20,975 nt of DNA from a virus. The DNA is taken from positions 1 to 20,975 of the IMG/VR virus record IMGVR_UViG_3300028840_001737; one strand, 5' to 3'. Below are positions 9,392 to 20,847 of the stretch, piece by piece. A program made the position numbers and the translations under genes. Below the pieces are notes generated by a model. That model was not told where the DNA came from. It did no database searches and saw only the letters and a list, made by a program, of their open reading frames with translations. Each line of letters opens with the position of its first letter. The stretch's first letter is position 1.

Positions 9392-11221
9392 ATGTTAAGT
9401 CCAACACAAATACAACAAATCAAACAACAAATAAATCTTCAAGAAGAAGATGATGATTTTGAAGAAAGAGTACAAGCAAGATTAGAGTCTATGAGACAAG
9501 AGAAAGAAATGGAGAAAGAAAGAGATAAAGGTATGTTTGAAAAAATGGGGGAATCTATAAAGGAGACTGTAACATCTCCTATTGATCAGATGAAATCATA
9601 TGCTGCAAAGAAAGAAGCAGAACTAAGAGCTGAAGGTAAAAAAACAACTGGATTGGCTGGAGTTTGGGAAGGAATGAAAGCAGCTCCAGGAGCTTTAATG
9701 TCTGGAGAGGTTAAATTGCCATCTATACCAGGCATAGGGACAATAGCAGGAAGGGAAGAAAAAAAAGCATTCGTTCAGCCAACAGCTAAAGCCTTAGCTA
9801 GACCATTTGTTGAAACATACAAAGGATTGGCTGGGCTAAATCTTTTCGGAGAAGAAGAAAAAGCTAAATCTGAAGAAGCTGTTTCATTGCCAGGAATAGG
9901 AGAAATAACTCCAAGAGGATTTACCGAAGAAGGTCGTAAAGCAATAGGAGAGTCAGCTTGGGAAGTGGCAGATGTAGCAGGAACAGTCCTTCCAGTTGAG
10001 AAATTAGCAGCCCCATTAGTTAAAGGAGCTAATAAAACTTTAAAATTTGCTGGAAAACCATTAAAGAAAATGTTTGATGTTGGTGGAAACCTAACAAAAC
10101 AAGCTCTTGCTAAACAATCTGGACTTAAGATAGAAACAATAGAGAATTTAATAAAAAATCCAGAGGCTATTACAAATGCTGAAAAAATGGCTATTGATAA
10201 GCTTTCATTAGTTAATAAAGTTGATGAAGGACTAGGGATTAGGCTTAAGGAGCTGGGAGAAGAAGGATCTAAATATTCAGATATAAGAAAAAGCAATCAG
10301 AAAATAAAAAATCCTATAGATAAACTAAAAGAGGAATTAAAAAGCAAGTATAAATTTGATATAGTTGATGGAAAAATAGCAGCAACAACTGAATCTGCTA
10401 CTAGATCTCCATCTGATATAAGAAATCTTCAAAGATTTATTGATGATTGGGGAGCAAAAAAAGAAATAACACCTTCTGAGTTTTTAAACATGCGTAAAGA
10501 TTTGACTAAAATGTCAAAGTTTGATATGGCATCAGGTAAAACAAGCGACGTTATGGGAATAGGTAGAGATTTGAGAAGTTTATTAAATAAAACTTCAAGA
10601 AAAGGAATAAAAGGACTTTCAAAATTAGATGAAGCTTTTTCTAAAGAAAGTGAATTATTAGAACCATTAAGAAAGAAATTGTTCGATAAAGATGGCACAA
10701 TGAAAGATAATGCTATATCCACAATAGCCAATTTGAATAGTCCAAATAAAAGAAAATTATTAGGAAGATTAAAAAAAGTTATTCCAGACATTGAAGAACA
10801 AGTAAATATGGTAAAAATATTAGAGGATATAGATGCTGTTAAGGGTCAAAAAATAGGAGCTTATGCTCAGAACATGTTTAGCAGTGGAGTTGGTGGTTTT
10901 GTTTTGACTGGTGGAAATCCAATCGGAGCTGTTGCTGGTGCTGTTATGTCACATCCACAAACAATAGTTCCTATTCTTAAGAATTACGGAAAAACATCAA
11001 AAATTGCCTCTAAAAAAATAAGCACCCTCATAAAAAGAATGAAGGCGGGAAAGACGCTTACTTTTAGAGAAAAGTCTTTGATAAAAAAAGCTATTCTTGA
11101 TCTTGTTCGTCCATATGACGAGACCAAAGGTGATCAATTCCAGCCCCGAGAAGTCGAAAAAGAAGGTATAAACTACCAAGAACCAATAGGATCCCGTGTG
11201 GAACGAGGATATACAGGGTAA
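9392..11221 (+). CDS. Ejection/internal virion-like helical protein
   Basis: 609 residues, last gene of the long late run. The N-terminus is highly charged (EEDDDFEERVQARLESMRQE). Then come Gly/Ala/Pro-rich amphipathic stretches (VKLPSIPGIGTIAGREEKKA; FVETYKGLAGLNLFGEE), long helical segments from about residue 260, and a Gly/Ala-rich hydrophobic patch at about 497-525 (GVGGFVLTGGNPIGAVAGAV). This mixture is typical of podovirus ejection proteins that insert into membranes, but no catalytic motif is seen. It ends ERGYTG just before the region containing a terminator. The assignment is from composition and position only. Confidence 0.6.
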   Translation: MLSPTQIQQIKQQINLQEEDDDFEERVQARLESMRQEKEMEKERDKGMFEKMGESIKETVTSPIDQMKSYAAKKEAELRAEGKKTTGLAGVWEGMKAAPGALMSGEVKLPSIPGIGTIAGREEKKAFVQPTAKALARPFVETYKGLAGLNLFGEEEKAKSEEAVSLPGIGEITPRGFTEEGRKAIGESAWEVADVAGTVLPVEKLAAPLVKGANKTLKFAGKPLKKMFDVGGNLTKQALAKQSGLKIETIENLIKNPEAITNAEKMAIDKLSLVNKVDEGLGIRLKELGEEGSKYSDIRKSNQKIKNPIDKLKEELKSKYKFDIVDGKIAATTESATRSPSDIRNLQRFIDDWGAKKEITPSEFLNMRKDLTKMSKFDMASGKTSDVMGIGRDLRSLLNKTSRKGIKGLSKLDEAFSKESELLEPLRKKLFDKDGTMKDNAISTIANLNSPNKRKLLGRLKKVIPDIEEQVNMVKILEDIDAVKGQKIGAYAQNMFSSGVGGFVLTGGNPIGAVAGAVMSHPQTIVPILKNYGKTSKIASKKISTLIKRMKAGKTLTFREKSLIKKAILDLVRPYDETKGDQFQPREVEKEGINYQEPIGSRVERGYTG

Positions 11222-11293
11222 TAAATATGGCTATTACGAATAGAAAATCTTTCATAGTTTTAAATTTAATAATTATATTTTAAATATAAAGTA

Positions 11294-11378
11294 TAGAATG
11301 AAAAAAGTCAAGTTTATATATACTTGGGGCGAAGGAATCACGTTCCAAAATATGCAACCTTGATTGGTTCGCATTCTG
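11294..11378 (+). ncRNA. Candidate cloverleaf-like RNA element (late 3' region)
   Basis: In the gap after the last late gene, four small helices can be drawn in order within about 85 bases: 11294-11300 with 11372-11378 (TAGAATG/CATTCTG, one U-G pair), CAAGT/ACTTG (11309-11313/11322-11326), GGAA/TTCC (11334-11337/11343-11346) and AACC/GGTT (11356-11359/11366-11369). The order is that of a tRNA cloverleaf. It lacks the GG of a D-loop, a TTCRA T-loop and CCA, so it is not called a tRNA. An alternative long-range pairing TCAAG/CTTGA exists. Only an 18-codon open frame (11228-11284) lies between the late gene and this element. Short AT-rich helices could be chance. Confidence 0.3.
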
Positions 11379-11384
11379 TTCAAA

Positions 11385-11416
11385 AAGAGCCATGCCTTAA
11401 AGGTGTGGTTCTTTTG
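11385..11416 (+). terminator. Rho-independent terminator ending the late operon
   Basis: AAGAGCCATGCC pairs with GGTGTGGTTCTT around a short TTAAA loop, giving about 12 bp with three G-U pairs, followed by a T-rich run (CTTTTGTTT). It lies about 165 bases after the last late gene and just before the P1 promoter, separating two transcription units. Confidence 0.8.
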
Positions 11417-11418
11417 TT

Positions 11419-11495
11419 TGTGTATAACTTTTAAAAGTATGCTAATCTTAGTATATAATTATACACTTGACAAAGTTTATTCTATGATATATAAT
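11419..11495 (+). promoter_or_regulatory. Promoter P1 with inverted DnaA-box-like operator
   Basis: TTGACA at 11467-11472 and TATAAT at 11490-11495 with a 17-base spacer: an exact sigma70-type consensus. Upstream is an inverted pair, TGTGTATAA (11419-11427, on the other strand TTATACACA, a perfect DnaA box) and TTATACAC (11459-11466), the second abutting the -35 box. A near copy lies at 15312-15387 with the same boxes at almost the same spacing. Predicted transcription start is about 11502, 24 bases before the small membrane gene. The boxes could bind DnaA or a phage regulator. Confidence 0.85.
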
Positions 11496-11525
11496 ATAGA
11501 TATAATAAAAATAAAAACAAAAATT

Positions 11526-11693
11526 ATGACAAAAACAATGTTTATGTGGGGGCTACTTCTAGCTGGACTAGCCTTTACAATCTACTTATCAACACAGCTA
11601 ACTATTCCTTACTTATCAGAACTAATCTCATTTTTCTGGGGAGGATTCGTAGCACTAGCTATTGATAAGTTAATAAAAGCGTCAAGACAATAA
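11526..11693 (+). CDS. 55-residue membrane protein
   Basis: The start at 11526 is chosen because it lies just after promoter P1. A longer in-frame version from 11364 would run through the terminator hairpin and upstream of the promoter. The protein starts MTKTMFMWGLLLAGLAFTIY and has two hydrophobic stretches, about residues 6-24 and 29-46, with a basic C-terminus (KLIKASRQ). It could be a second holin-like or membrane-stress protein. The following gene is a DenV-like repair enzyme, so the unit is not purely lytic. Family not recognised. Confidence 0.65.
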   Translation: MTKTMFMWGLLLAGLAFTIYLSTQLTIPYLSELISFFWGGFVALAIDKLIKASRQ

Positions 11694-11694
11694 T

Positions 11695-12138
11695 ATGTCA
11701 AGAATAAATATAGGAATTGCTCCTTCCGACCTAACTGATAAGCATTTATTAGCTGAGCATAGAGAAATAAAAAGAATATGCTACTTGTTTAATAAACATA
11801 AAAAGCTAATAAAGACTATGAATTATAAAATTCCTAATGACTTCCGGCTGGGCGAGGGACATCTAAAATTCTTTTTGGATAAAGGTGCCTATACTTATTA
11901 TAGATACCTAGAAATTCATAAAGAATGTAAAAAAAGAGGCTTCAAAGTTAAAGATTATTCTAGAAATTGGTTTGAAGCTTACAGTAAATATAGTGAGTAT
12001 TTTAACAATTATAAACCCTCAAGCGATGATATAAGTATAATAAAGGATAGAATTAAAAGAAGATTAGCTAACATTGCTTCTTTGAAATACTATCAAGTAC
12101 AAATATCAACAAAGGAGGCTTTGCTATTGATAGGGTAG
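11695..12138 (+). CDS. denV: DenV-like pyrimidine dimer DNA glycosylase (endonuclease V, T4 type)
   Basis: 147 residues aligning by eye to T4 DenV along most of its length: MSRINIGIAPSDLTDKHLLA, then EHREIKR, FRLGEGHLKFFLDKG, and EIHKECKKRGFKVKD correspond to T4 MTRINL, AEYREL, LGAGHVTFFYDK and ELIAECLKRGFNIKD. In T4 the N-terminal Thr2 amine attacks the glycosidic bond at UV dimers and Glu23 is catalytic. Here Ser2 is at the N-terminus (after Met removal) and Glu24 is the equivalent, so both functions appear intact. The C-terminal SLKYYQ matches T4 WYKYYG. The enzyme would repair UV damage to phage or host DNA. Start follows CAATAAT, one base after the previous stop. Confidence 0.9.
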   Translation: MSRINIGIAPSDLTDKHLLAEHREIKRICYLFNKHKKLIKTMNYKIPNDFRLGEGHLKFFLDKGAYTYYRYLEIHKECKKRGFKVKDYSRNWFEAYSKYSEYFNNYKPSSDDISIIKDRIKRRLANIASLKYYQVQISTKEALLLIG

Positions 12139-12140
12139 AA

Positions 12141-12236
12141 AGCAGTCTGATTACGAATATAACCGTAACTGTTCTGCTGGAAACCCATCAACGGCGTTTT
12201 ATCTGGGTGGGATATGCTGGCATGGGATATCCCACC
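12141..12236 (+). ncRNA. Structured RNA segment between denV and next gene
   Basis: Three hairpins fill this gap. H1: AGCAG 12141-12145 with CTGCT 12174-12178, inside it TTACG/CGTAA (12151-12155/12164-12168). H2: ACCCA 12183-12187 with TGGGT 12204-12208. H3: GGTGGGATAT 12206-12215 with ATATCCCACC 12227-12236, an exact 10-bp stem. H2 and H3 share bases 12206-12208, so they cannot both form fully, as in regulatory switches. H3 lacks a T-run and is not an obvious terminator. The start of the next gene lies 11 bases after H3. No known riboswitch or ribozyme pattern is recognised. Confidence 0.5.
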
Positions 12237-12246
12237 TTATAAAATT

Positions 12247-12435
12247 ATGTTATATAAACAAGTAGTTAAAAAATTAAAAAAACTAAAAGAAAATAGAAGT
12301 ATAATATACATATATAATGAAGAGCCTGGTTATACAATAATACAAGGCACTAAAAACCACTTTCAATATATTATACTTAGAGAATCAGAGCTTAAAGCTC
12401 TTTATAACAAACTTAAAAAAAAATATGAAAATTGA
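12247..12435 (+). CDS. 62-residue basic hypothetical protein
   Basis: The start at 12247 is preferred to the in-frame ATG at 12214 because the latter lies inside a strong RNA hairpin, while 12247 has the AAAATT-ATG context seen at 11526. The product begins MLYKQVVKKLKKLKENRSII and continues YIYNEEPGYTIIQGTKNHFQ, a charged helix followed by a beta-rich part and a basic helical tail (LKALYNKLKKKYEN). It ends with TGA and overlaps the next gene by 11 bases. It may bind nucleic acid or a cell-wall component; no family recognised. Confidence 0.6.
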   Translation: MLYKQVVKKLKKLKENRSIIYIYNEEPGYTIIQGTKNHFQYIILRESELKALYNKLKKKYEN

Positions 12436-13006
12436 GATTTTTTACTTATTGTTTGTCGCCTCAATATCAGTATTTTTAATAAATAATGTAGACTTAAATG
12501 CTAGACTTAATAACACCGCTAATATTGCTAGCAGTAGTAGTGATATTAGCACTAGTACAAAACCAAGAATAACAGATGCTACTGATCCAGAAGTTTTTGA
12601 TAAAGCTTTTGATCAAGCACTAGAAGAATATGCAAAATCAAAAGAGAATGGAGCAACAAGACAAGTTGTTTCAAATACTCCTAAGAATAGCGGGGGTGTT
12701 GTTAGTAATAATAATGCTACTGGGGATGTATATATTAAAAACGATATAACAAACTATATAAGAGAACAGGCAAAAATAAATAATATAAATGTAAACAAAG
12801 CGTTAGCCGTTGCATGGTGTGAATCAAGATTTGATCCAAATGCTAGCAATGGACATAGTACAGCAAAAGGAGTTTATCAATTTCTACGTGGAACTTGGGC
12901 TAATTATTGTGAAGGAGATGTGTTTGATTATAAGTCTAATATAGATTGTTTTATGAAGATTTATCCTAAACATCCAAGTTGGTGGGAATGCCATTGGATG
13001 ACATAA
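12425..13006 (+). CDS. Membrane-anchored or secreted transglycosylase-like protein
   Basis: 193 residues. The N-terminus (KIEIFYLLFVASISVFLINN) is a signal peptide or membrane anchor, followed by a Ser/Thr/Asn-rich linker to about residue 110. The C-terminal domain contains ALAVAWCESRFDPNA, the ES motif of lytic transglycosylases with Glu133 as the presumed catalytic acid, then TAKGVYQFLRGTW. The domain is short compared with full SLT domains and ends WWECHWMT, with four Cys that may form disulfides outside the cytoplasm. It likely cleaves peptidoglycan glycan strands during lysis or entry. Start overlaps the previous stop by 11 bases. Confidence 0.75.
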   Translation: MKIEIFYLLFVASISVFLINNVDLNARLNNTANIASSSSDISTSTKPRITDATDPEVFDKAFDQALEEYAKSKENGATRQVVSNTPKNSGGVVSNNNATGDVYIKNDITNYIREQAKINNINVNKALAVAWCESRFDPNASNGHSTAKGVYQFLRGTWANYCEGDVFDYKSNIDCFMKIYPKHPSWWECHWMT

Positions 13007-13010
13007 AAAT

Positions 13011-13127
13011 ATGCCAAAGGAGGTTAAATTTTTAATAAAACTAGTATTGAAAGCAGCCATTGTCGTGTTGCTTTCAGCACTTGTTTTAGTCTTATTAATA
13101 AGTGAGATAAAAAAATGGATATATTAA
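13011..13127 (+). CDS. 38-residue single-span membrane protein
   Basis: ATG 13011 follows AAAAAT, four bases after the transglycosylase-like stop. The product MPKEVKFLIKLVLKAAIVVL and following LSALVLVLLISEIKKWIY has one hydrophobic span (about residues 8-31) flanked by Lys. It overlaps the next gene by 13 bases. Position beside a peptidoglycan-cleaving enzyme makes a holin or lysis regulator plausible, but nothing confirms that. The AAAGGAGG inside its own early codons is probably coding, not a binding site. Confidence 0.55.
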   Translation: MPKEVKFLIKLVLKAAIVVLLSALVLVLLISEIKKWIY

Positions 13128-13240
13128 TACATTTCAGTAGATGCTTTATATGTGGTAAAGAATATGATGATAAAGAAAATCAAAAAAGCATTTTTGATAA
13201 AGGTATGTGTTTAAAATGCCTTAATGGCAATTTAAAATAA
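13115..13240 (+). CDS. 41-residue zinc-ribbon mini-protein
   Basis: Begins MDILIHFSRCFICGKEYDDK and has two CxxC pairs (C10/C13 and C32/C35) around a short charged loop, the pattern of a small zinc ribbon. It overlaps the previous membrane gene by 13 bases in another frame. Start context is an A-run with no Shine-Dalgarno, so it belongs to the AT-type genes rather than the island that starts 29 bases later. Zinc binding is inferred from Cys spacing; a nucleic-acid or protein-binding role is likely but unproven. Confidence 0.6.
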   Translation: MDILIHFSRCFICGKEYDDKENQKSIFDKGMCLKCLNGNLK

Positions 13241-13268
13241 TCGTTCTTTTAAAAAAAGGAGGTGTGCT

Positions 13269-13421
13269 ATGAGACTTTTGCCATGTTGTGCTAAATGTGG
13301 TAAAAAGATTTACGTTGAGTCGGTTGGAGTTTATTTGGTCGGTCCTTATTATGTAATAGGAATTGACCTATTTTGTTATGAATGTTTTAAAAAAAGAAAG
13401 GAGGGACGAAATGACATGTGA
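13269..13421 (+). CDS. 50-residue Cys-rich protein, first gene of SD-led island
   Basis: Preceded by AAGGAGGTG at 13256-13264, five bases before ATG, the first strong Shine-Dalgarno of the window. Cys residues C6, C7, C10 and C36, C39 form two CxxC-type knuckles separated by a Tyr/Val/Gly-rich beta stretch (YVESVGVYLVGPYYVIGID), ending with a basic tail (KKRKEGRNDM). It ends in TGA and overlaps the next start by 11 bases, so translation is probably coupled. A zinc ribbon is likely; no function assigned. A transferred origin for the whole island is suggested by its changed start signals. Confidence 0.65.
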   Translation: MRLLPCCAKCGKKIYVESVGVYLVGPYYVIGIDLFCYECFKKRKEGRNDM

Positions 13422-13596
13422 CAAGTATTATTCATGTTACAGAGTTGTCAGGTGTGGAAGCTGTGGCGAATTTCTGTGTTATATTGATGAAGAAAAACAA
13501 GATTGCAGACTTAAGCCACATTATACTCATGCTGAGAAAGAGGGAATAAGATGTATAACGTGCAATAATGGGGGTGCTAATGTGCTTAAAGGTTAA
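13411..13596 (+). CDS. Com-like zinc-ribbon protein A
   Basis: Start 13411 is chosen for its Shine-Dalgarno AAGGAGG (13398-13404); an in-frame ATG at 13363 has none. The 61-residue product has C15-x2-C18, C23 and C48-x2-C51 in the order VVRCGSCGEFLCYI and GIRCITCNN. This resembles the small Mu Com-like zinc fingers (CxxC, a Leu-containing strand, then IxCxxC..N). Mu Com is a translational activator, but the similarity here is by motif only. It is paralogous to the gene at 13964 (same Cys order and spacing). It overlaps the next gene by 17 bases. Confidence 0.65.
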   Translation: MTCDKYYSCYRVVRCGSCGEFLCYIDEEKQDCRLKPHYTHAEKEGIRCITCNNGGANVLKG

Positions 13597-13768
13597 ACAG
13601 TGTACAGTCTGTCTAAGGTATCTTGAAACATTGCAAAGTAATCTTGACACTTTTGTAGAAGCCCATTATAAAACTGGGCGTCAACTTTACTGTGTTCAGT
13701 GTTATCAAGATTATGGAAACATGGATGAATTTAACTTTAACAAAGGCGAGCCACATACGCCGTCATAG
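13580..13768 (+). CDS. 62-residue zinc-ribbon protein
   Basis: ATG 13580 is preferred to ATG 13568 because GGGGGTG just before it can serve as Shine-Dalgarno. The protein has C8/C11 (QCTVC) and C38/C41 (YCVQC), spaced 27 residues apart with a charged helix between (TLQSNLDTFVEAHYKTG) and an acidic tail. This is a treble-clef-like or zinc-ribbon arrangement. It overlaps the upstream Com-like gene by 17 bases and precedes an acidic mini-protein. Alternative start 13568 would add MGVL. No family is recognised. Confidence 0.6.
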   Translation: MCLKVKQCTVCLRYLETLQSNLDTFVEAHYKTGRQLYCVQCYQDYGNMDEFNFNKGEPHTPS

Positions 13769-13777
13769 GAGGTGATC

Positions 13778-13951
13778 ATGTGTGAAAATGGATCAGGTCA
13801 TGAGGGTGATAGCAATGGTAATGGTAATAGTAATGTGGATCATGTCGATCCTGACATTACTGATCTTGCAACGGATTATGAAAACAATCCGCTGTCTGAT
13901 GAGAACGTAACCGAATGGACTCCAGGCGGTAAGGAAACAGGACACGCCTAG
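13778..13951 (+). CDS. 57-residue strongly acidic protein
   Basis: AGGAGGTGATC directly abuts the ATG, an extended complement of the 16S 3' tail. The product (MCENGSGHEGDSNGNGNSNV, then DHVDPDITDLATDYENNPLS) carries many Asp and Glu, one Lys and no Arg, and is Gly/Asn-rich and probably flexible. Small acidic phage proteins sometimes mimic DNA to block host nucleases or regulators, but that is only a compositional guess. An open frame on the opposite strand here is judged a shadow because of this start signal and the flanking co-directional genes. Confidence 0.6.
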   Translation: MCENGSGHEGDSNGNGNSNVDHVDPDITDLATDYENNPLSDENVTEWTPGGKETGHA

Positions 13952-13963
13952 AGGGGGTGTACT

Positions 13964-14152
13964 ATGATATGCTGGGGATGTGAGCGTATTATTATTTGCG
14001 GAACTTGTCAAAAGCAATTATGCTATATCAAGAATGGTAAGTGCTATTTTCAGCCTTACTTTGAGCCTTTTGAGGGTCGTCCTCTTGAGTGCATGAATTG
14101 TGGAGCTGGACAATTTCCAAATGAAAAACGTTGGATAACATCGAAAGGATAG
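13964..14152 (+). CDS. Com-like zinc-ribbon protein B (paralog of 13411 gene)
   Basis: GGGGGTG at 13953-13959 precedes ATG by 4 bases. Cys at 12, 15, 20 and 43, 46 repeat the layout of the gene at 13411: IICGTCQKQLCYI matches VRCGSCGEFLCYI, and LECMNCGAGQF matches IRCITCNNGGA. So these are diverged tandem copies, separated by two other genes. A likely zinc ribbon, possibly RNA- or DNA-binding as in Com-like proteins. The basic tail (NEKRWITSKG) would suit nucleic-acid contact. The gene ends in TAG, 4 bases before the next start. Confidence 0.65.
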   Translation: MICWGCERIIICGTCQKQLCYIKNGKCYFQPYFEPFEGRPLECMNCGAGQFPNEKRWITSKG

Positions 14153-14156
14153 AGCT

Positions 14157-14357
14157 ATGAATTTAAAGATCATCATTAAAGACGTATCATCCGGAATTTT
14201 TTTCCTTATCCTTGATAGTATAGCCAAGCCGTTTGGTGGCAAGGTTACAAAAGATGGTGAATTTATCGGAGACGATGAAGCAAAAAAGGCTACAATCCAC
14301 GAAGCCAGCGAAATGTTCGGGGGCAATGATGGGAATTCTAAAAACTCTTCTGATTGA
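14157..14357 (+). CDS. 66-residue protein with hydrophobic N-terminus
   Basis: AAAGGAT at 14144-14150 lies six bases before ATG. The N-terminal half (MNLKIIIKDVSSGIFFLILD) may insert in or lie on a membrane. The C-terminal half is acidic and polar (GGKVTKDGEFIGDDEAKKAT), ending Asn/Ser-rich. It stops in TGA, and the next gene starts 31 bases upstream of that stop in another frame, showing dense overlapping as in the rest of the island. No conserved domain is recognised. Confidence 0.6.
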   Translation: MNLKIIIKDVSSGIFFLILDSIAKPFGGKVTKDGEFIGDDEAKKATIHEASEMFGGNDGNSKNSSD

Positions 14358-14484
14358 TTTGCCAGTGGCTATTCTGGGCTTATTCTTTAAGAATTCGAGC
14401 CCAAAGCCTTGTTCTAATTGTCAAGGTCAATGCAAACCTTACTGCAATGGAGGTGAAAATGTCAGACACAAGCAGAGGAAATAA
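14326..14484 (+). CDS. 52-residue membrane protein with Cys cluster
   Basis: ATG at 14326 (or 14329) follows GGGGGC, a usable though closely spaced binding site. In-frame upstream ATGs would extend across the previous gene without a ribosome binding site. The product MMGILKTLLIDLPVAILGLF has one hydrophobic span, then C29, C32, C36 and C40 (PCSNCQGQCKPYC) and a basic tail. It overlaps genes on both sides (32 and 26 bases). A membrane-tethered Cys cluster is unusual and may bind metal. Weaker support than for its neighbours because start choice and double overlap are uncertain. Confidence 0.45.
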   Translation: MMGILKTLLIDLPVAILGLFFKNSSPKPCSNCQGQCKPYCNGGENVRHKQRK

Positions 14485-14767
14485 GATTGGTCTTTGCCCT
14501 AAATGCTTTGAAGCTGGGCACTTGACCGCTCATCATGTTCTACCAAAAAGGTACTTCGGACAAAACAAGCACAAGCTGTATTTATGCAGGTCTTGTCACA
14601 ATGAAATCGAGGCTACTCTTCCAAGCTGGAAAATGAAGCGAGGTAATTACTTCAAGATCCATAAAGCATGGTTAAGAGATCAGCCAATTGTAGTGGTAGA
14701 CAGCAAAAAGCACAAACGACTTATAAGAGAAAGAAGGATGAACATAGATGAATCTAGGCTCGATTGA
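14459..14767 (+). CDS. HNH endonuclease-like protein
   Basis: Start 14459 is set by GGAGGTGA (14449-14456); an in-frame ATG at 14354 lies inside the neighbouring membrane gene and has no such site. The 102-residue product carries C13/C16, H25-H26 (TAHHVLPKRYFG) and C43/C46-H47 (YLCRSCHNEIE), the Cys4-type HNH core: zinc-holding CxxC pairs around the catalytic His. A charged C-terminal helix follows (KKHKRLIRERRMNIDES). It may be a mobile homing-type nuclease or a phage DNA-processing enzyme. It ends in TGA and overlaps the next gene by 20 bases. Confidence 0.75.
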   Translation: MSDTSRGNKIGLCPKCFEAGHLTAHHVLPKRYFGQNKHKLYLCRSCHNEIEATLPSWKMKRGNYFKIHKAWLRDQPIVVVDSKKHKRLIRERRMNIDESRLD

Positions 14768-14987
14768 TATTGTAATAAGGTATACTCTTATGGGAGTTTT
14801 TTTTACGCTTGTTCTTACCAATATTCACATGACTGGAAACAAGCATCCAAAAGCTCACCTCGTTGGTTTAGCTCGTGTGGCAATTTATATCATATGGTCA
14901 ATTTTTGCTCACGCATACGAGACTATACCTGGTTCAATTGTCATTCTGTGGTTTACTTTTAAAGCTCACATGAAATGGCAAAAATAA
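14748..14987 (+). CDS. 79-residue membrane protein, last gene of SD-led island
   Basis: AAGGAT about 11 bases upstream of ATG is the probable binding site. Hydrophobic segments are at about residues 6-25 (IDIVIRYTLMGVFFTLVLTN) and 40-70 (LARVAIYIIWSIFAHAYETI and onward), so two or three spans. The C-terminus is basic (KAHMKWQK). It overlaps the HNH gene by 20 bases and is followed within 10 bases by the strong terminator at 14995-15023, so it closes the transcription unit. No family recognised. Confidence 0.6.
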   Translation: MNLGSIDIVIRYTLMGVFFTLVLTNIHMTGNKHPKAHLVGLARVAIYIIWSIFAHAYETIPGSIVILWFTFKAHMKWQK

Positions 14988-14994
14988 CTTAACG

Positions 14995-15023
14995 GGGGGG
15001 AATGCAAAGCTTCCCCCCTTTTT
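14995..15023 (+). terminator. Strong Rho-independent terminator closing the island
   Basis: GGGGGGAA (14995-15002) pairs perfectly with TTCCCCCC (15011-15018), loop TGCAAAGC, followed by TTTTT (15019-15023). It is the most GC-rich stem in an otherwise AT-rich window, just after the last island gene, and isolates the island from the downstream genes. Confidence 0.9.
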
Positions 15024-15042
15024 ACTATTAATTATAAAAAAA

Positions 15043-15309
15043 ATGAATAAATGTAAATATTGTGGAGAGGAAACAAAATACAAATTTTGTTCTAGAGAAT
15101 GTTACTATAATAACAGAAGAAAAAAAGATCAAGAGGCTGAATCTTTGTATTTTATAGAAATAAAAAACCTTATTTTACAAGCTCAAGAGGACGCTAAAAC
15201 TCCCACCTTGAGCTATATATCAAAAAAAATGAATAAATCTAAGGGTTGGACTTCTAATATTGTTAATAAAATGATAGAAAAAAATATTATAAAAAAAGGT
15301 TATTACTAG
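15043..15309 (+). CDS. Zinc-ribbon plus winged-helix-like protein
   Basis: 88 residues. N-terminus NKCKYCGEETKYKFCSREC carries C4, C7, C16 and C20, a zinc ribbon typical of tRNA- or DNA-binding adaptors. After a basic linker (NNRRKKDQEAE), residues about 35-85 form helices with TLSYISKKMNKSKGWTSNIV, a winged-helix-like reader, and a basic tail (IEKNIIKKGYY). It is likely a phage DNA-binding regulator. No promoter is seen between the terminator at 15023 and its ATG (A-run context); it may rely on readthrough. P2 operator boxes begin 3 bases after its stop. Confidence 0.65.
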   Translation: MNKCKYCGEETKYKFCSRECYYNNRRKKDQEAESLYFIEIKNLILQAQEDAKTPTLSYISKKMNKSKGWTSNIVNKMIEKNIIKKGYY

Positions 15310-15311
15310 TA

Positions 15312-15387
15312 TGTGTATAACTTTTTTTATTGTGTAATATTAGTATCATTTTATACACTTGACAAAGTTCAATCTATGATATATAAT
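15312..15387 (+). promoter_or_regulatory. Promoter P2, second copy of P1 regulatory region
   Basis: TTGACA 15359-15364 and TATAAT 15382-15387, 17-base spacer. Upstream TGTGTATAA (15312-15320, perfect DnaA box on the other strand) and TTATACAC (15351-15358) form an inverted pair 30 bases apart, against 31 in P1. Sequence identity to P1 extends through most of the -35 to -10 region (CTATGATATATAATATA), while the sequence between the boxes differs. This duplicates a promoter-operator of one regulator. Transcription start about 15394, 22 bases before the next gene. Confidence 0.85.
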
Positions 15388-15415
15388 ATAAATATAATAA
15401 TTAAAGAGAAAAAAT

Positions 15416-15664
15416 ATGAAAACAAGATTTGAGTACAAATTTGATGTCGATTTCAATCAAGAAGTTATCGACAAAAGAGTGAAACTTCACTCAGACACTC
15501 TAATTAGAGATATCAACATGCTAAGTGCTAAGGAGGACGGCATTATAAAAGACTACGATTTAAACGGTAAATACGGCACAGCTATAATGGATGAAGAAGG
15601 TTATGTTAATTTACTAAGAGACTTGGGCATATTTGAAAGTGCTAGAGTCTATCAATTGAAATAA
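15416..15664 (+). CDS. 82-residue hypothetical early protein
   Basis: First gene after P2, with ATG after an A-run (GAAAAAAT). Starts MKTRFEYKFDVDFNQEVIDK and continues with charged helices and a probable beta part (DYDLNGKYGTAIMDEEGYVN), ending ARVYQLK. Soluble, no Cys motif, no membrane span. Strong promoter and first position suggest an abundant early product, possibly a host-directed protein. No family is recognised. The next gene starts one base after its stop. Confidence 0.7.
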   Translation: MKTRFEYKFDVDFNQEVIDKRVKLHSDTLIRDINMLSAKEDGIIKDYDLNGKYGTAIMDEEGYVNLLRDLGIFESARVYQLK

Positions 15665-15665
15665 T

Positions 15666-15905
15666 ATGGATATAGAATTACTTAAAAAACATATGGACGA
15701 AGGTTTTGGATTAACAAAAGAGTTAATTCTAGCAGATGGAGATTTATCTATGTGGCTTGAAACACACATAGATCACAAAAAAACATATTTTTATTTTACA
15801 AAATGTGGAGAAGAAAACAAGCAAATACTTAGAACATTTATAAACGAAGATGATTTGAAGTATGTTAAAAATCAAATAGATTTAATATTAAAAATAATAT
15901 ATTAA
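15666..15905 (+). CDS. 79-residue hypothetical protein
   Basis: Starts one base after the previous stop in the TAAT-ATG style. The product (MDIELLKKHMDEGFGLTKEL, then WLETHIDHKKTYFYFTKCGE) is acidic with an aromatic beta patch and a C-terminal amphipathic helix (YVKNQIDLILKIIY). It is a small soluble protein of P2 operon type, and its order with neighbours suggests co-transcription. No function is assigned from sequence; it may be a helper of the first gene. Confidence 0.7.
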   Translation: MDIELLKKHMDEGFGLTKELILADGDLSMWLETHIDHKKTYFYFTKCGEENKQILRTFINEDDLKYVKNQIDLILKIIY

Positions 15906-15910
15906 ATAAT

Positions 15911-16069
15911 ATGGCTTATTTTAACAAAAAAAAAGGAATAATAAAAGAACCATGGGACTTTCAATATGAAACCCCTTACTTTGTAAAACATTTCTGGGAG
16001 TGGGTGTTAAATGATAATAAGTTTGACGATACACTTCCAAAAGCTAAAAAAGTTAATTTACTTAAATAA
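15911..16069 (+). CDS. 52-residue hypothetical protein
   Basis: ATG 15911 follows TAAATAAT and TAA ends at 16069. The product MAYFNKKKGIIKEPWDFQYE then TPYFVKHFWEWVLNDNKF is aromatic-rich (several Trp, Phe, Tyr) with a basic start and a Lys-rich end (PKAKKVNLLK). Such size and aromatic content suit a binding protein, but no family is recognised. Spaced five bases from its upstream neighbour and one from the next in the same operon. Confidence 0.65.
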   Translation: MAYFNKKKGIIKEPWDFQYETPYFVKHFWEWVLNDNKFDDTLPKAKKVNLLK

Positions 16070-16070
16070 T

Positions 16071-16220
16071 ATGAGTGCATCTAAAAACTTCTTTAATGCT
16101 TTAAAAGATGATCCTCAATCTATAATAGAGTGGTGCGAAAATGAGATTAAGGAATATAAAAAACTAATTAAATTAATTAAAAAATATGAAGGAGGAAATT
16201 TTAAAACTAAAATCAACTAG
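16071..16220 (+). CDS. 49-residue hypothetical protein
   Basis: Start 16071, one base after the previous stop, is preferred to an in-frame ATG at 16011 that lies within the previous gene. It encodes MSASKNFFNALKDDPQSIIE, then WCENEIKEYKKLIKLIKKYE, an acidic turn followed by a Lys-rich amphipathic helix. It could be a small helical binding protein. It is in the P2 operon; no family recognised. Confidence 0.6.
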   Translation: MSASKNFFNALKDDPQSIIEWCENEIKEYKKLIKLIKKYEGGNFKTKIN

Positions 16221-16314
16221 ATCAGATTTTTACTGGTCAAAAATAATTAATAATGCTTGTCTATATGATCACAAAAAAACAACAACAAGTAATAGATGCA
16301 ATAGTGCATCATAA
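16186..16314 (+). CDS. Possible 42-residue overlapping protein (weak)
   Basis: ATG at 16186 has the usual AAAAAT-type start context and opens MKEEILKLKSTRSDFYWSKI, overlapping the end of the previous gene by 35 bases and the start of the next by 50. The first half looks coding (charged then aromatic), but the end (KTTTSNRCNSAS) looks out of frame with the HTH gene. It may be a real short overlapping gene or a spurious frame; without it the 16221-16264 gap is simply short. Confidence 0.25.
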   Translation: MKEEILKLKSTRSDFYWSKIINNACLYDHKKTTTSNRCNSAS

Positions 16315-16459
16315 ATTAATTGATAGGAAATCACCAAGCTTAGAGAAATTGTCAGAAGTTACTGGAATGAAAAAAGCTTCTGTATATTCAAAAATTGATA
16401 GTCTTTTAAGAAAAAAAGCTATATCATTTGAGAACAACGAATATAGAGTACACTTTTAA
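16265..16459 (+). CDS. LexA-type winged-helix DNA-binding protein
   Basis: 64 residues from ATG 16265 (preceded by TCTAT); ATG 16253 would add four residues and is less like other starts here. The sequence MITKKQQQVIDAIVHHKLID, then SPSLEKLSEVTGMKKASVYS and KIDSLLRKKAISFENNEYRV, matches the LexA N-terminal winged helix (helix, turn, recognition helix, wing with basic residues), but lacks the LexA catalytic domain. Probably a small phage transcription regulator. Could act on the P1/P2 operators, which is only inference. Confidence 0.75.
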   Translation: MITKKQQQVIDAIVHHKLIDRKSPSLEKLSEVTGMKKASVYSKIDSLLRKKAISFENNEYRVHF

Positions 16460-16483
16460 GAAATATTTATAGAAATTACTAAT

Positions 16484-16669
16484 ATGAAAAACAGTGGATA
16501 TATACATTTTATTATATCAGAATTATTAAAACATTATAATATAGACAATGTTTTGGATAAAAAACAAACTAATGATCTTATAAAACAAATAAGCAGCCTT
16601 ATAATAGAAGAGAAAAAAAACTATAGAAATGAATTGGAACAAAAAATATTGCAAAAAATATTTGATTAA
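16484..16669 (+). CDS. 61-residue helical hypothetical protein
   Basis: Start after ACTAAT with no Shine-Dalgarno. Encodes MKNSGYIHFIISELLKHYNI followed by DNVLDKKQTNDLIKQISSLI and a charged helical end (RNELEQKILQKIF). The sequence is predicted helical throughout, moderately acidic and basic patches alternating, with no Cys or membrane span. Position among P2 early-type genes is the main support for its being real. No family recognised. Confidence 0.6.
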   Translation: MKNSGYIHFIISELLKHYNIDNVLDKKQTNDLIKQISSLIIEEKKNYRNELEQKILQKIFD

Positions 16670-16686
16670 TTAAAAAAAATAATAAT

Positions 16687-16944
16687 ATGAAAAAAACTAG
16701 AAAATGTCTATATTGTGAAACAAGAATATCATCAAGCAATAGTATTTGTTCTACTTGTAATTTTATAAAAATGTCAGCTATTGAGTTGCAGAGATATTTA
16801 AATAACTTCTTAGATTATAAGAACATAAAAAAGATTGTTTCAGTAGATGTTCAAATAATTGATAAAAGAAAAAGAGATAAAGAAGTTATTGATAGTATTA
16901 TAAAAACATTTGGTGGTAAAAAATTGACAAAACCTAAAAAATAG
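16687..16944 (+). CDS. Zinc-ribbon mini-protein with basic tail
   Basis: 85 residues. C7/C10 (KCLYC) and C21/C24 (SICSTC) form a tight zinc ribbon, followed by a helical domain (SAIELQRYLNNFLDYKNIKK) and a very basic C-terminus (GGKKLTKPKK). This is likely a nucleic-acid-binding protein. The last codons contain a consensus -35 box (TTGACA at 16924-16929) and the -10 follows its stop, so the 3' end of this gene doubles as a promoter for the structured region beyond. Ends in TAG. Confidence 0.65.
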   Translation: MKKTRKCLYCETRISSSNSICSTCNFIKMSAIELQRYLNNFLDYKNIKKIVSVDVQIIDKRKRDKEVIDSIIKTFGGKKLTKPKK

Positions 16945-16952
16945 CATATAAT
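16924..16952 (+). promoter_or_regulatory. Promoter P3 for structured RNA region
   Basis: TTGACA 16924-16929 and TATAAT 16947-16952, spacer 17, an exact consensus. It overlaps the last codons and stop of the zinc-ribbon gene and has no gene for 770 bases downstream. Start of transcription about 16959. Confidence 0.85.
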
Positions 16953-16958
16953 ATAAAT

Positions 16959-17178
16959 GAATTTACATGTTTTAATTGAACGCTACTGTGGTAAACACGA
17001 AGTTTAATTGAGACATTTTGCCAATCACTAGGGAATGATTGGCTCCCTAGCCACAGATATGGTTTTTTCATACTACTAATACAAGAGCTTAGGCTCTAAA
17101 CCGTATTAGTGGCTAGGGATATAATGGTTACCTTAGTCTGGGTCTCTGGATAGTTGCCCCGCTAAAGCTAAGGTTTCC
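16959..17178 (+). ncRNA. Candidate structured non-coding RNA 1
   Basis: Downstream of P3 and without a credible gene. TCCCTAGCCAC (17044-17054) pairs fully with GTGGCTAGGGA (17109-17119). Inside, ACTAATAC (17075-17082) pairs with GTATTAGT (17103-17110), enclosing AGAGC/GCTCT (17084-17088/17093-17097). Before it, CCAATCA/TGATTGG and CTAGGGA/TCCCTAG are interleaved (17021-17050); the connecting loops are too short to form both at once, so they look like alternative hairpins, and TCCCTAG has two possible partners. ACCTTAG/CTAAGGT (17130-17136/17168-17174) closes the 3' part. TTTAATTGA repeats at about 16973 and 17003. The RNA may switch between shapes. I do not recognise the family. Confidence 0.55.
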
Positions 17179-17179
17179 C

Positions 17180-17207
17180 TTGACAAATAATTTAGATTTG
17201 ATATAAT
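17180..17207 (+). promoter_or_regulatory. Promoter P4 for non-coding RNA 2
   Basis: TTGACA 17180-17185 and TATAAT 17202-17207 with a 16-base spacer. It follows directly on the last helix of RNA 1. Predicted start about 17214. The only downstream element is the pseudoknot-capable RNA and a T-run, with no ORF of note, so it probably drives a small RNA. Confidence 0.85.
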
Positions 17208-17213
17208 ATCTTT

Positions 17214-17325
17214 ACCTTAAAAATTACATACTCGCCTACAACAAGAGAACACAGATTAGCTGTTTACCTGCTCCCACTTTGTTGTAGGCGTGGGTAATGG
17301 TAGATAGCCAATCTGTGTTTTTTTT
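17214..17325 (+). ncRNA. Candidate pseudoknotted small RNA 2, about 110 nt
   Basis: CGCCTACAACAA (17233-17244) pairs perfectly with TTGTTGTAGGCG (17279-17290), 12 bp. AACACAGATT (17248-17257) pairs perfectly with AATCTGTGTT (17310-17319), 10 bp. The two helices interleave, which defines a pseudoknot. Loops of about 3, 21 and 19 bases make it sterically possible. An alternative inner hairpin CCCAC/GTGGG (17273-17277/17290-17294) displays the 3' strand of the first helix in its loop. A run of eight T (17318-17325) directly follows the second helix, so it doubles as a terminator. With P4 this is a complete small RNA gene. No known family recognised. Confidence 0.65.
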
Positions 17326-17350
17326 ATTGAAATTTTTATCAATTTTTTTT
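17318..17350 (+). terminator. T-run and back-up terminator of RNA 2
   Basis: The second RNA 2 helix ends in eight T at 17318-17325. Immediately after, ATTGA/TCAAT (17326-17330/17339-17343) forms a short hairpin followed by a further T-run (17343-17350). Tandem stops are expected for a strongly expressed small RNA. Confidence 0.7.
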
Positions 17351-17720
17351 CCTTAATTCTCTTTAATTTTTTAAAGAGAACTATAGGACGAATAATCCTA
17401 GTTGTACCCACGGTTTCACTTACCACCATAAGCAACTATAAATAATTAGATGTTCTCAAAGTGGCTAATACGGATACTCCAGTCTCAAGCATTTATTAGT
17501 TTTAATTCTTCTAAAAAAAAGAATTTCGCTCGTTTTTTTTAACTATTTATTAGTCTTTTTAAACAAAAAAAAGACAGTCTTTAGCAGATCAACTTACACA
17601 AGCTAGAACACAAGGACAAGTAGTTAGGGCAAGGTGAAGTATAGGGTAAATGCTTAGACAGAGAAACGGCTTAGTTAGTGGGGACGTTTTATAACACTAT
17701 AGCTATTGTATTACAATTAT
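17351..17720 (+). other. Gene-free repeat-rich stretch, function unknown
   Basis: No credible gene in 370 bases. It contains an exact 10-bp hairpin TTCTCTTTAA/TTAAAGAGAA (17357-17366/17371-17380), TAGGA/TCCTA (17384-17388/17396-17400), AATTCTT/AAGAATT (17504-17510/17519-17525) followed by a T-run, the direct repeat ATTTATTAGT (17491-17500 and 17545-17554), and GTCTTTTT/AAAAAGAC (17553-17560/17568-17575). AT-rich hairpins and repeats next to small RNA genes could belong to a replication origin, to a longer RNA, or to transcription ends on both strands. From about 17590 to 17700 I see no notable structure. Confidence 0.5.
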
Positions 17721-18044
17721 ATGAAAGAGGATTATCCTTTAAAGTCTTTTAGACTTAACAAAAAAACAATTAAAAATTTAGAAAAAATTAAGAATGAAAC
17801 AAACCTTAGCTATAACATGTTGTTTTATAAGCTTATAAATTTATATAATAATTCAATAAGAAAAACTAATATGAATATAATAGTAAAAGAAGGAGAAATT
17901 TGTCCACATTGCAATACTGGAATAATACAACTAAGGAATAGTAGATTTGGAGAATTTTTAGCATGTGATCAGTTTCCTAATTGTGCATTTAAACAAAATA
18001 TAAAAGAAGACTTAGATATGGGTCAAAAAGGTTTTAAGGATTAA
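17721..18044 (+). CDS. Ribbon-helix-helix plus topoisomerase-type zinc finger protein
   Basis: 107 residues. Start 17721 follows ACAATTAT; an in-frame ATG at 17706 would add five residues. Residues about 1-48 (PLKSFRLNKKTIKNLEKIKN, then NLSYNMLFYKLINLYNNSIR) look like a ribbon-helix-helix DNA-binding domain. Residues about 58-92 hold C61, C64, C82 and C88 (ICPHCNTGIIQLRNSRFGEF, LACDQFPNCAF), the zf-C4 topoisomerase I finger that binds single-stranded DNA. The combination of RHH with a topoisomerase finger in one short protein is uncommon. Probable regulator or DNA-binding protein of the replication region. Confidence 0.75.
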   Translation: MKEDYPLKSFRLNKKTIKNLEKIKNETNLSYNMLFYKLINLYNNSIRKTNMNIIVKEGEICPHCNTGIIQLRNSRFGEFLACDQFPNCAFKQNIKEDLDMGQKGFKD

Positions 18045-18048
18045 TAGT

Positions 18049-18474
18049 ATGTATCAATTTGAATGCTTAAAAGGTTTAGGTAAAAAGTTAGACTTCAACA
18101 AACAATCTAAAGAATGGATAGCGTTTAATGAAAAAAAGACTAATAAAAAGATTAAGAATAGAAAAATAGAAAAATTAAGAGAAATGGATTATATGGAGTA
18201 TTTAAAGACAGATTGGTGGAAACATAGAAGGAAAAAGTTTATTAACAAGTTTAAAATAAAAGATTGTTATTGTTGTAAAGAAAGTTTTAGAGAAGTGCAC
18301 CATTGTAGTTATGATAGAATTGGAAATGAAAAGGATAAAGACTTAGTTCTTTTGTGCAATAAGTGCCATAATGAAGTTCATAACTTGGTTTTAAATGATA
18401 AAAAAATAAAGCTAAAAGAAGCTCATGAAATATATAAAAAAATATTAATACTAGATATATCAAATGAAGTTTAA
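18049..18474 (+). CDS. HNH endonuclease
   Basis: 141 residues. After a basic N-terminus (KKTNKKIKNRKIEKLREMDY), DWWKHRRKKFINKFKIK leads into C73/C76 (DCYCCKESF), H84-H85 (EVHHCSYDRIG), then C103/C106-H107 (LLCNKCHNEVH), the His-Asn-His core with two zinc CxxC pairs. The catalytic His is expected at 84 or 85. It probably nicks or cuts DNA, either as a homing-type element or in packaging or host DNA breakdown. It starts 4 bases after the RHH-finger gene and ends in TAA. Confidence 0.85.
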   Translation: MYQFECLKGLGKKLDFNKQSKEWIAFNEKKTNKKIKNRKIEKLREMDYMEYLKTDWWKHRRKKFINKFKIKDCYCCKESFREVHHCSYDRIGNEKDKDLVLLCNKCHNEVHNLVLNDKKIKLKEAHEIYKKILILDISNEV

Positions 18475-18527
18475 AGGATTTGATAAACTAAAGAAATTTT
18501 ATAATTAACAAACTAACATAAAACAAT

Positions 18528-18743
18528 ATGACAACTAGAAAAGAAATAGTCAAAGACATAAAAAATATAATAGGATTAAAAAACCAGATAGACAATGAAG
18601 TAATAGAAAGAATTTGTAATTATATATTTAATAGAATTAAAGATGAGAATATTATGGCAAAAGAAGTATCCGATTTGCTTATTACAATAGAAGATTATTC
18701 TGATGAAATAAAAAAAGAAATACTTAATTTTATAAGCAAATAA
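18528..18743 (+). CDS. 71-residue acidic helical protein
   Basis: ATG after AACAAT with no Shine-Dalgarno. The product MTTRKEIVKDIKNIIGLKNQ then IDNEVIERICNYIFNRIKDE and KEVSDLLITIEDYSDEIKKE is helical, mixed charge, with no Cys pair or membrane span. The 53 bases before it hold no obvious promoter. It precedes a CGTTTT/AAAACG hairpin. Function not recognised. Confidence 0.65.
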   Translation: MTTRKEIVKDIKNIIGLKNQIDNEVIERICNYIFNRIKDENIMAKEVSDLLITIEDYSDEIKKEILNFISK

Positions 18744-18746
18744 GAA

Positions 18747-18770
18747 CGTTTTGCCGAAACCAGTAAAACG
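18747..18770 (+). promoter_or_regulatory. Short CGTTTT hairpin upstream of P5
   Basis: CGTTTT (18747-18752) and AAAACG (18765-18770) form a 6-bp stem with loop GCCGAAACCAGT. The same CGTTTT/AAAACG core recurs inside the long hairpin at 19614-19670. There is no T-run, so it is not a clear terminator. A shared operator or RNA signal is possible. Confidence 0.4.
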
Positions 18771-18779
18771 ATAAAAAAG

Positions 18780-18816
18780 TTATCCACTTGACATAGTTAC
18801 TAAAGTAATATATAAT
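18780..18816 (+). promoter_or_regulatory. Promoter P5 of SSB operon, with DnaA-like box
   Basis: TTGACA 18788-18793 and TATAAT 18811-18816, 17-base spacer. TTATCCAC (18780-18787) directly abuts the -35 box, just as TTATACAC does in P1 and P2, and differs from a DnaA box (TTATCCACA) only at the last base. The upstream TGTGTATAA arm is missing here. Start about 18823, 21 bases before the ribbon-helix-helix gene. Confidence 0.85.
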
Positions 18817-18843
18817 ACAAGTGTAACAATTAAAGACAATAAC

Positions 18844-18969
18844 ATGAGGAATACAAACATCCATTTAGAGAGGGAGCTAAAAGCAGAACTTAAAAAGAAG
18901 GCCGAACTAGCAGGCACTTCTTTAGAAAAAATGATTATAGCTATTTTACAAGAATATATTAATAATTAA
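18844..18969 (+). CDS. 41-residue ribbon-helix-helix protein
   Basis: First gene after P5. Sequence MRNTNIHLERELKAELKKKA then ELAGTSLEKMIIAILQEYIN is the minimal Arc/CopG-type ribbon-helix-helix: one beta strand (TNIHL), a helix and a second helix after a Gly-Thr-Ser turn. Such proteins bind DNA as dimers and often repress their own operon; here the nearest candidate operators are the TTATCCAC box or the CGTTTT hairpin. It starts after AATAAC and precedes the SSB by 40 bases. Confidence 0.75.
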   Translation: MRNTNIHLERELKAELKKKAELAGTSLEKMIIAILQEYINN

Positions 18970-19009
18970 AGCCGTTAGTAGCAAATTAAAGCTCAAGGCA
19001 ACAAACATT

Positions 19010-19588: not shown

Positions 19589-19606
19589 CGTATAGAGCCA
19601 AATTTA

Positions 19607-19676
19607 GCCCGTAGAGAGACGTTTTAATTAAAAAGGCAGAATATGCCTAGACAAACATAAAACGTCTCTCAGGGGC
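19607..19676 (+). promoter_or_regulatory. Long perfect hairpin between SSB and next gene
   Basis: GAGAGACGTTTT (19614-19625) pairs without mismatch with AAAACGTCTCTC (19659-19670), 12 bp. Inside, AGGCA/TGCCT (19634-19638/19644-19648) makes a second hairpin. Outside, GCCC/GGGC (19607-19610/19673-19676) extends the base across a small internal loop. There is no T-run, so it is not a plain terminator. It may slow exonuclease decay, set relative expression of SSB, or bind a protein. ATG of the next gene lies 14 bases downstream. Confidence 0.6.
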
Positions 19677-19690
19677 AAATAAAGACAATT

Positions 19691-19798: not shown

Positions 19799-19800
19799 AT

Positions 19801-20151: not shown

Positions 20152-20152
20152 T

Positions 20153-20344: not shown

Positions 20345-20345
20345 A

Positions 20346-20729
20346 ATGCAAAAGTATAAACCAAAAAAAAAGATAACATCTCAACAAAAAAAGTCTAAAC
20401 TTAAAAGAAAGTTAGATAGAATAATACAAGAGAAAGGAAGAGAAGTTTATGATAGATGTATGGTATGTGGTAGTGAATATTCATGCCTTCATCACTACTA
20501 TACTAAATCAATGAGTTTGAGGCTTAGGTACGACTGGGAAAATTTAATTCCTTTATGTGCAGGGTGTCATTTTTCACATCATAATGGAAATCCAGAAATA
20601 CATAACAAAGTAAGAGATATAAAGGGGGAAGACTGGCTCAAGGAACTTGAAGCAAAAAAAAGACAAATAGCAAATGACACTATAGAATATTATGAGGACT
20701 TGTTGACAAAATTTAATAGAGTAGTATAA
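20346..20729 (+). CDS. NinG-like / HNH recombination endonuclease
   Basis: 127 residues. A basic N-terminus (KKKITSQQKKSKLKRKLD) is followed by C38/C41 (RCMVCGSE), H49-H50 (CLHHYYTKS), LRYDWENLIPLC, then C71/C74-H75 and H78-H79 (CAGCHFSHHNGNPE). The order CxxC, HH, RxDxxN, CxxCHxxHHNGN matches NinG-type recombination proteins of lambdoid phages and related HNH enzymes. The C-terminus (GEDWLKELEAKKRQ) fits too. It likely acts on recombination or packaging intermediates. Its last codons carry the -35 box of P6 (TTGACA at 20703-20708). Confidence 0.75.
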   Translation: MQKYKPKKKITSQQKKSKLKRKLDRIIQEKGREVYDRCMVCGSEYSCLHHYYTKSMSLRLRYDWENLIPLCAGCHFSHHNGNPEIHNKVRDIKGEDWLKELEAKKRQIANDTIEYYEDLLTKFNRVV

Positions 20730-20730
20730 T
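20703..20730 (+). promoter_or_regulatory. Promoter P6 of the anti-SD RNA
   Basis: TTGACA 20703-20708 and TATAAT 20725-20730 with a 16-base spacer, embedded in the last codons and stop of the NinG-like gene. No gene lies between it and the terminator 58 bases further on, so the only product would be the small RNA. Predicted start about 20737. Confidence 0.8.
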
Positions 20731-20736
20731 ATAAAA

Positions 20737-20809
20737 AAATCAAATTTCATATTTTTCTCACCTCCTTAAGAGAAGAAAAACAAAACGCCACTAGCAATAG
20801 TGGTTTTTT
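20737..20809 (+). ncRNA. Candidate anti-Shine-Dalgarno small RNA (about 73 nt)
   Basis: Between P6 and a terminator. TTCTC (20755-20759) and GAGAA (20770-20774) close a hairpin; with flanking T and A bases the stem is about 8 bp including one G-U. The 10-base loop is ACCTCCTTAA. The stretch TCACCTCCTTA (20758-20768) is identical to the 3' tail of bacterial 16S rRNA, the anti-SD. So the RNA could base-pair with Shine-Dalgarno sequences in other messages and block them. The complementary strand would read AAGGAGGTGA, followed by an ATG-led hydrophobic frame antisense to the nuclease gene, which I judge less likely. Function is inferred. Confidence 0.6.
20788..20809 (+). terminator. Rho-independent terminator of the small RNA
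   Basis: CCACTA (20788-20793) pairs with TAGTGG (20798-20803), tetraloop GCAA (a GNRA loop), followed by TTTTTT (20804-20809). It ends both the early operon and the small RNA and lies just before P7. Confidence 0.9.
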
Positions 20810-20812
20810 GTG

Positions 20813-20841: not shown

Positions 20842-20847
20842 ATAAAT

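Follow-up and report, generated by a model that had tools for sequence, protein, structure and literature searches.

A block of nine SD-led mini-genes, probably acquired, in a phage contig of otherwise SD-less genes, with a putative anti-SD small RNA

Phage moron or accessory cassettes are made up of small genes of foreign composition and are closed by a terminator. In Flavobacterium johnsoniae a Kozak-like start signal with an A-3/A-6 pattern has been reported (PMC6847099), and in Bacteroidota rpsU is translated in an SD-dependent manner by ribosomes lacking bS21 (PMC9976891). Bacterial anti-SD sRNAs that repress by covering the start region are represented by NfeR1/alpha-r14 (PMC10746234) and the csRNAs (PMC3091779): NfeR1 silences ntrB through pairing at the ntrB start region, and CAU is present in 53 of the 61 streptococcal csRNAs. 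A 2025 review of phage-derived sRNAs describes c4 RNA as covering a ribosome-binding site, and no anti-SD-loop sRNA was found in the part of that review available to us (PMC12197685). In the literature searched, which included few subscription papers, no phage was found to combine an anti-SD sRNA with genes of its own that lack SD, and such a combination would be new, if real.

The window, that is, the whole stretch of 20,975 nucleotides analysed here, is a tailed-phage fragment represented by one virus record (IMGVR_UViG_3300028840_001737) and encodes a tail collar protein, an M23 peptidase, an SLT lysozyme, a pyrimidine-dimer glycosylase and an SSB-like protein. All 43 genes counted lie on the plus strand, nine of them in an island at 13269-14987 and 34 in the flanks; their start codons were picked by us, and in one island gene 14326 is possible instead of 14329. 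We consider it probable that this island is an accessory cassette which came from an SD-using replicon and now makes up the downstream end of an operon, the phage itself being SD-less with Kozak-like starts. An alternative genetic code was set aside, since table 11 leaves the flank genes open and TGA serves as a stop codon, in one flank gene and in three island genes.

The two groups of genes differ in the way they start. SD sites are found upstream of all nine island genes, with a mean pairing energy of -9.98 kcal/mol versus -0.58 kcal/mol for the 34 flank genes (Mann-Whitney p = 5.6e-6), in agreement with the initial annotation, according to which island genes mostly start after strong purine-rich sites and flank genes start without SD. 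Upon shuffling of the island start regions the pairing fell to -5.30 +/- 0.66 kcal/mol and none of 500 shuffles reached the real strength; shuffled flank start regions gave -0.25 kcal/mol, and 22 of 500 shuffles equalled the real flank strength. Pairing below -13 kcal/mol is displayed by four or five of the nine island genes, depending on the version of the anti-SD used (five with the longer one), and by none of the 34 flank genes. The sets are nearly separate, the weakest island gene (14157) and the strongest flank gene (19691) having the same value of -5.7 kcal/mol, and GGAGGT occurs on the plus strand at only four sites, 13019, 13258, 13768 and 14449, three of them in the island and one just upstream. 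The flank genes lack SD; their start context is A-rich and Kozak-like, position -6 being A in 30 of the 34 genes (p 7e-8), position -3 A in 27 (p 2e-5) and position -1 T in 28 (p 4e-9), and it resembles the signal of F. johnsoniae. TAATATG stop-start junctions with a gap of one nucleotide also recur along the contig (e.g. 1703, 2898, 4699, 11691, 15662 and 20149), which suggests re-initiation without SD. An SD-led block inside an SD-less genome offers a natural test of how initiation signals limit or control acquired genes.

Composition likewise sets the island apart when it is compared with the rest of the contig, a check that the initial annotation had proposed. GC3 is 0.341 in the island and 0.212 in the flank, the best nine-gene block outside the island reaching 0.217; the CpG observed/expected ratio is 0.67 versus 0.38; and, scored against flank usage, the island has a codon cost of 1.122, while none of 28 equally large flank blocks exceeds 0.931, so that both GC3 and codon usage lie outside the range of all such blocks. 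Total GC was discarded as evidence of acquisition because the phage's own structural genes reach the same value (up to 0.41), and the compositional distinction is consequently made only by GC3, CpG and codon usage. The island had been described as less AT-rich than its surroundings, which holds for GC3 but not for total GC when the structural genes are taken into account. The nine overlapping mini-genes that had been proposed were recovered as nine ORFs, but overlaps are present at only five of the eight junctions. As for the use of TGA stops, TGA is indeed rare in the flank (27 TAA, 6 TAG and 1 TGA among 34 genes; Fisher p = 0.024 for TGA), but only three of nine island genes end with it, the remainder being equally divided between TAA and TAG. 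Taken with SD use, these differences in GC3, CpG and codon usage support the suggestion that the block was acquired from outside.

The island opens with a 50-aa Cys-rich mini-protein (13269..13421; SD GGAGGTG), which shows a weak match to phrog_21057, of unknown function (E 1.2e-4). It is followed by a 61-aa Cys-rich zinc-ribbon-like protein (13411..13596; SD GGAGGG), a 62-aa CxxC mini-protein (13580..13768; SD GGGGGTG), a 57-aa acidic mini-protein whose SD, AGGAGGTGATC, is the most extended (13778..13951; extended pairing -19.3 kcal/mol), and a second Cys-rich zinc-ribbon-like protein of 62 aa (13964..14152). The latter and the product of 13411 are paralogous (pairwise E 1e-9), and judging from their sequences the zinc-ribbon-like gene is duplicated within the island. 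The next gene has a weaker SD and encodes a 66-aa protein with a hydrophobic N-terminal and an acidic C-terminal part (14157..14357), and downstream of it lie genes for a 51-aa protein with a likely membrane helix and a Cys cluster (14329..14484), a 102-aa HNH-like protein (14459..14767; phrog_8446 HNH, E 4.8e-4) and a 79-aa hydrophobic, probably membrane protein (14748..14987; phrog_2421, function unknown, E 0.011). The island thus holds four or five Cys-rich mini-proteins, one acidic, two or three that contain hydrophobic stretches, and one HNH-like, and the Cys-rich, acidic and membrane mini-proteins announced by the initial annotation are all represented. The host-takeover or anti-defence role suggested for them found no support, since PADLOC, Pfam and PHROGs yielded no family match of note: Pfam and PHROGs searches of the nine proteins were nearly empty, the HNH-like protein scoring 18.3 bits against Pfam HNH_5 (E 0.0023), below the curated cut-off of 27.5, and PADLOC returned nothing for eight of the nine and an E of about 0.05 for the HNH-like protein. 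AlphaFold models were too poor to be of use (pLDDT 64.6 for the HNH-like protein and 48.9 for a zinc-ribbon-like one), and Foldseek was empty at E <= 0.001. Functional assignments of the mini-proteins thus draw on very weak homology, and an optional, moron-like role in host interaction may be envisaged. Cys-rich mini-ORFs are also seen in both flanks, at 13115-13240 and 15043-15309.

A strong GC-rich intrinsic terminator closes the island (14994..15019, plus strand), as had been claimed, and no consensus promoter of its own was found. The nearest one upstream is a TTGACA-17-TATAAT promoter with 12/12 matches (11467..11495, plus strand), a probable operon start, and the island is therefore probably the distal end of that operon, which would be read as a single transcript from 11467 through the island to the terminator. 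Perfect TTGACA-16/17-TATAAT promoters number seven in 11000-20975 (span 11467-20841), against a Markov expectation of 0.01, and none is present in the left 11 kb of the contig. The donor would be a replicon whose genes start by SD-anti-SD pairing, and the nine genes would be translated SD-dependently, in which case the output of the island would depend on the use of the anti-SD by host ribosomes and on any competitor for it.

Searches for relatives, near and distant, brought up no close phage. A near-identity search of the whole window against the GenBank phage collection gave no match, nor did tblastn of 14459, 2902, 13964, 14748 and 13269 against the same collection; scans of viral contigs with 14459, 2902, 9392 and 14748 found no relative, and comparison of the island DNA with plasmids found none. 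The SSB finds the most relatives, namely 48 virus contigs, one MAG contig and phages of Flavobacterium and Cellulophaga. When the 43 window proteins were compared with 51 loci (L002-L052), four proteins besides SSB matched, each in one to five loci, and these distant SSB relatives have no island gene in common save one HNH-like homologue. The latter, the sole one found (contig L043, identical to L147; 43% over residues 9-73, 65 residues), likewise lies downstream of a Cys-rich mini-ORF, with a GGAGGAG site ahead of it. Use of SD differs from locus to locus among the loci sharing SSB: in L007, six of the 30 listed ORFs, including RadC and DUF932 genes, pair below -7 amid SD-less genes, and L053 carries the same stretch, which indicates that a mixture of SD-led and SD-less genes is not unique to this phage. 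A virus contig and a Desulfobacteraceae MAG each carry the L007/L053 element. Since neither a relative with an empty site nor a donor was found, the argument for acquisition is drawn entirely from composition and start signals.

That the island sits neatly within an operon is a point against acquisition; a search for repeats gave only short or weak ones, with none seen to flank the island, and no integrase was seen. The continuous operon structure and the Cys-rich mini-ORFs in both flanks would also fit an island native to a phage lineage with ordinary SD, the flank having lost its SD through AT drift; we hold this to be distinctly unlikely, because the boundary is sharp over all 43 genes, the flank has a positive start signal of its own, and codon usage and CpG differ between the two. 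Sharp compositional edges, and the existence of only one virus record of 20975 bases, would be in keeping with a chimeric assembly in which the island derives from another organism in the sample. Nevertheless, the edges fall between genes of a same-strand operon, whereas assembly breaks usually fall anywhere, and such a chimera is very unlikely.

The SD sites could instead be no leftovers but a second translation channel under selection. Host ribosomes would normally ignore SD, in the manner of Bacteroidota, whose anti-SD is hidden by bS21, bS18 and bS6, and the island would be read only by special ribosomes or in one phase of infection. In line with this, the flank context matches the Flavobacterium A-3/A-6 pattern (PMC6847099), phages of Flavobacterium and Cellulophaga are among the SSB relatives, and five island genes pair below -13 kcal/mol with the longer anti-SD, a strength like that described for rpsU and its SD-dependent translation (PMC9976891). 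However, the promoters of the contig are perfect TTGACA/TATAAT and not of the Bacteroidota TTTG/TANNTTTG type (PMC6847099), the window proteins that were scanned include no recognisable bS21 or S1, and a translation switch leaves the differing codon usage of the island unexplained, so that we regard this channel as unlikely. The clues to the host conflict, as start context and SSB point to SD-poor bacteria such as Bacteroidota and the promoters point away from them; a Bacteroidota host was set aside because the promoters do not fit. Acquisition of the island from an SD-using replicon is the reading that we retain.

Within the last 280 bases of the contig, a perfect promoter (TTGACA-16-TATAAT, 20703..20730, plus strand, 12/12 matches) precedes a putative RNA, here termed RNA C (20737..20810, plus strand). 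In its hairpin at 20752-20777 a 10-nt loop, ACCUCCUUAA, is predicted at 20760-20769, an unpaired anti-SD which we take to be the 16S anti-SD sequence. CAU (anti-start) lies upstream of the hairpin at 20748-20750, a terminator at 20787-20804 is followed by a T run, and the next perfect promoter is at 20813. From the promoter, anti-SD hairpin and terminator at 20703-20810 we predict a small RNA of about 70 nt, which folds with z scores of -5.6 and -4.5 in two folds. A chance match was set aside; when the letters of RNA C were shuffled 200000 times, ACCTCCTT turned up in 132 cases, in a test that is post hoc. The best four predicted start-region targets, and six of the best seven, are island genes; flank gene 13011 is among the top five, and the strongest predicted pairing on the plus strand lies outside the island, inside gene 9392. 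The loop pairs with island starts because these have SD sites, and the pairing energies are consequently not independent evidence.

If made, RNA C would compete with ribosomes at SD sites, and it is the best candidate for a regulator of an SD-dependent island. We may hypothesize that it acts as a ribosome mimic in a contig with two grammars, shutting off SD-led host mRNAs together with the island while SD-free phage genes escape; this remains a doubtful proposal. If true, it would amount to an RNA-based, selective translational takeover with built-in silencing of foreign DNA in a phage genome, and if RNA C is real, a phage RNA copying the 16S tail would be a simple means of separating phage from host translation. 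We give similarly low credence to RNA C being an antisense RNA to a minus-strand gene at 20574-20750 (58 aa), whose SD-ATG it would cover as in type I toxin-antitoxin systems. The minus strand does read AAGGAGGTGAGAAAAATATG, opening a hydrophobic ORF of 58 aa, but no upstream minus-strand promoter above 8/12 is present in the window, a terminator-like hairpin lies in between, and the ORF runs opposite an HNH gene and owes its hydrophobicity to the Lys-rich partner strand. Moreover, the opposite-strand ORF covered by a look-alike RNA in contig L137 is just 20 aa long.

This look-alike came from a scan of viral contigs for a promoter followed by ACCTCCTT, which gave 93 stretches, all of them screened. 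It is the one look-alike recognised with the layout of RNA C (minus strand near 1600; perfect promoter, CAU, a hairpin with loop CCUCCUUCUA and a terminator), and it lies in an SD-using, low-GC phage, 18 of whose 29 ORFs pair below -7, which fits the takeover idea poorly. Promoter, anti-SD and terminator are also present in contigs L096, L119 and L093, where opposite-strand ORFs do not exceed 9 aa and the small-loop hairpin is absent. An exact scan for the promoter with CACCTCCTTA hit no contig, and a perfect promoter followed by CCTCC or CTCCT within 90 nt was found in none of the 51 loci (L002-L052). Rfam searches gave no match above threshold, the rest being at chance level, and nothing beyond short fragments at chance level (best E 0.03) came up when RNA C and the stretch at 16920-17380 were compared with phages by blastn.

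Immediately downstream of the consensus promoter, 22 of the 93 stretches have a long leader hairpin whose pyrimidine-rich loop includes ACCUCCUU (e.g. L054:2189-2273, minus strand; L061:3931-4015 and L064:7747-7831, plus strand; 19 more loci). The stems vary in sequence yet still pair, and a gene follows; these hairpins are distinct from RNA C and are possibly cis-acting translation elements. In the window itself, a gene-free stretch at 16924-17330 is predicted to give two promoter-driven, strongly folded non-coding RNAs, at 16959-17175 (fold z -6.6) and at 17214-17325 (fold z -5.8, with a U run at the end), and neither has a match above threshold in Rfam. A possible 12-bp pseudoknot, CGCCUACAACAA/UUGUUGUAGGCG, was spotted by eye in the second.

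Compared with the systems described so far, the island resembles phage moron or accessory cassettes in its small genes of foreign composition ending in a terminator, but no consensus promoter of its own was found, and its translation signals as well as its composition differ from those of the carrier. As in the case of SD-dependent rpsU in Bacteroidota (PMC9976891), a few strong-SD genes stand among SD-less ones; nevertheless, rpsU is one host gene, whereas the present case concerns nine phage genes in a block, on a contig whose promoters are of the sigma70 type. RNA C shares with the alphaproteobacterial "cuckoo" RNAs alpha-r14/NfeR1 an anti-SD motif left unpaired in a hairpin, but alpha-r14 has three hairpins with CCUCCUCCC and RNA C a single one with ACCUCCUUAA (PMC10746234). 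Like the csRNAs of the Streptococcus CiaRH regulon, it would be short and driven by a strong promoter, with an unpaired anti-SD, CAU and stem-loops; judged by sequence, it has a promoter and a terminator of its own, and it differs from them in being a putative RNA of a phage contig that displays its anti-SD in a 10-nt hairpin loop (PMC3091779).
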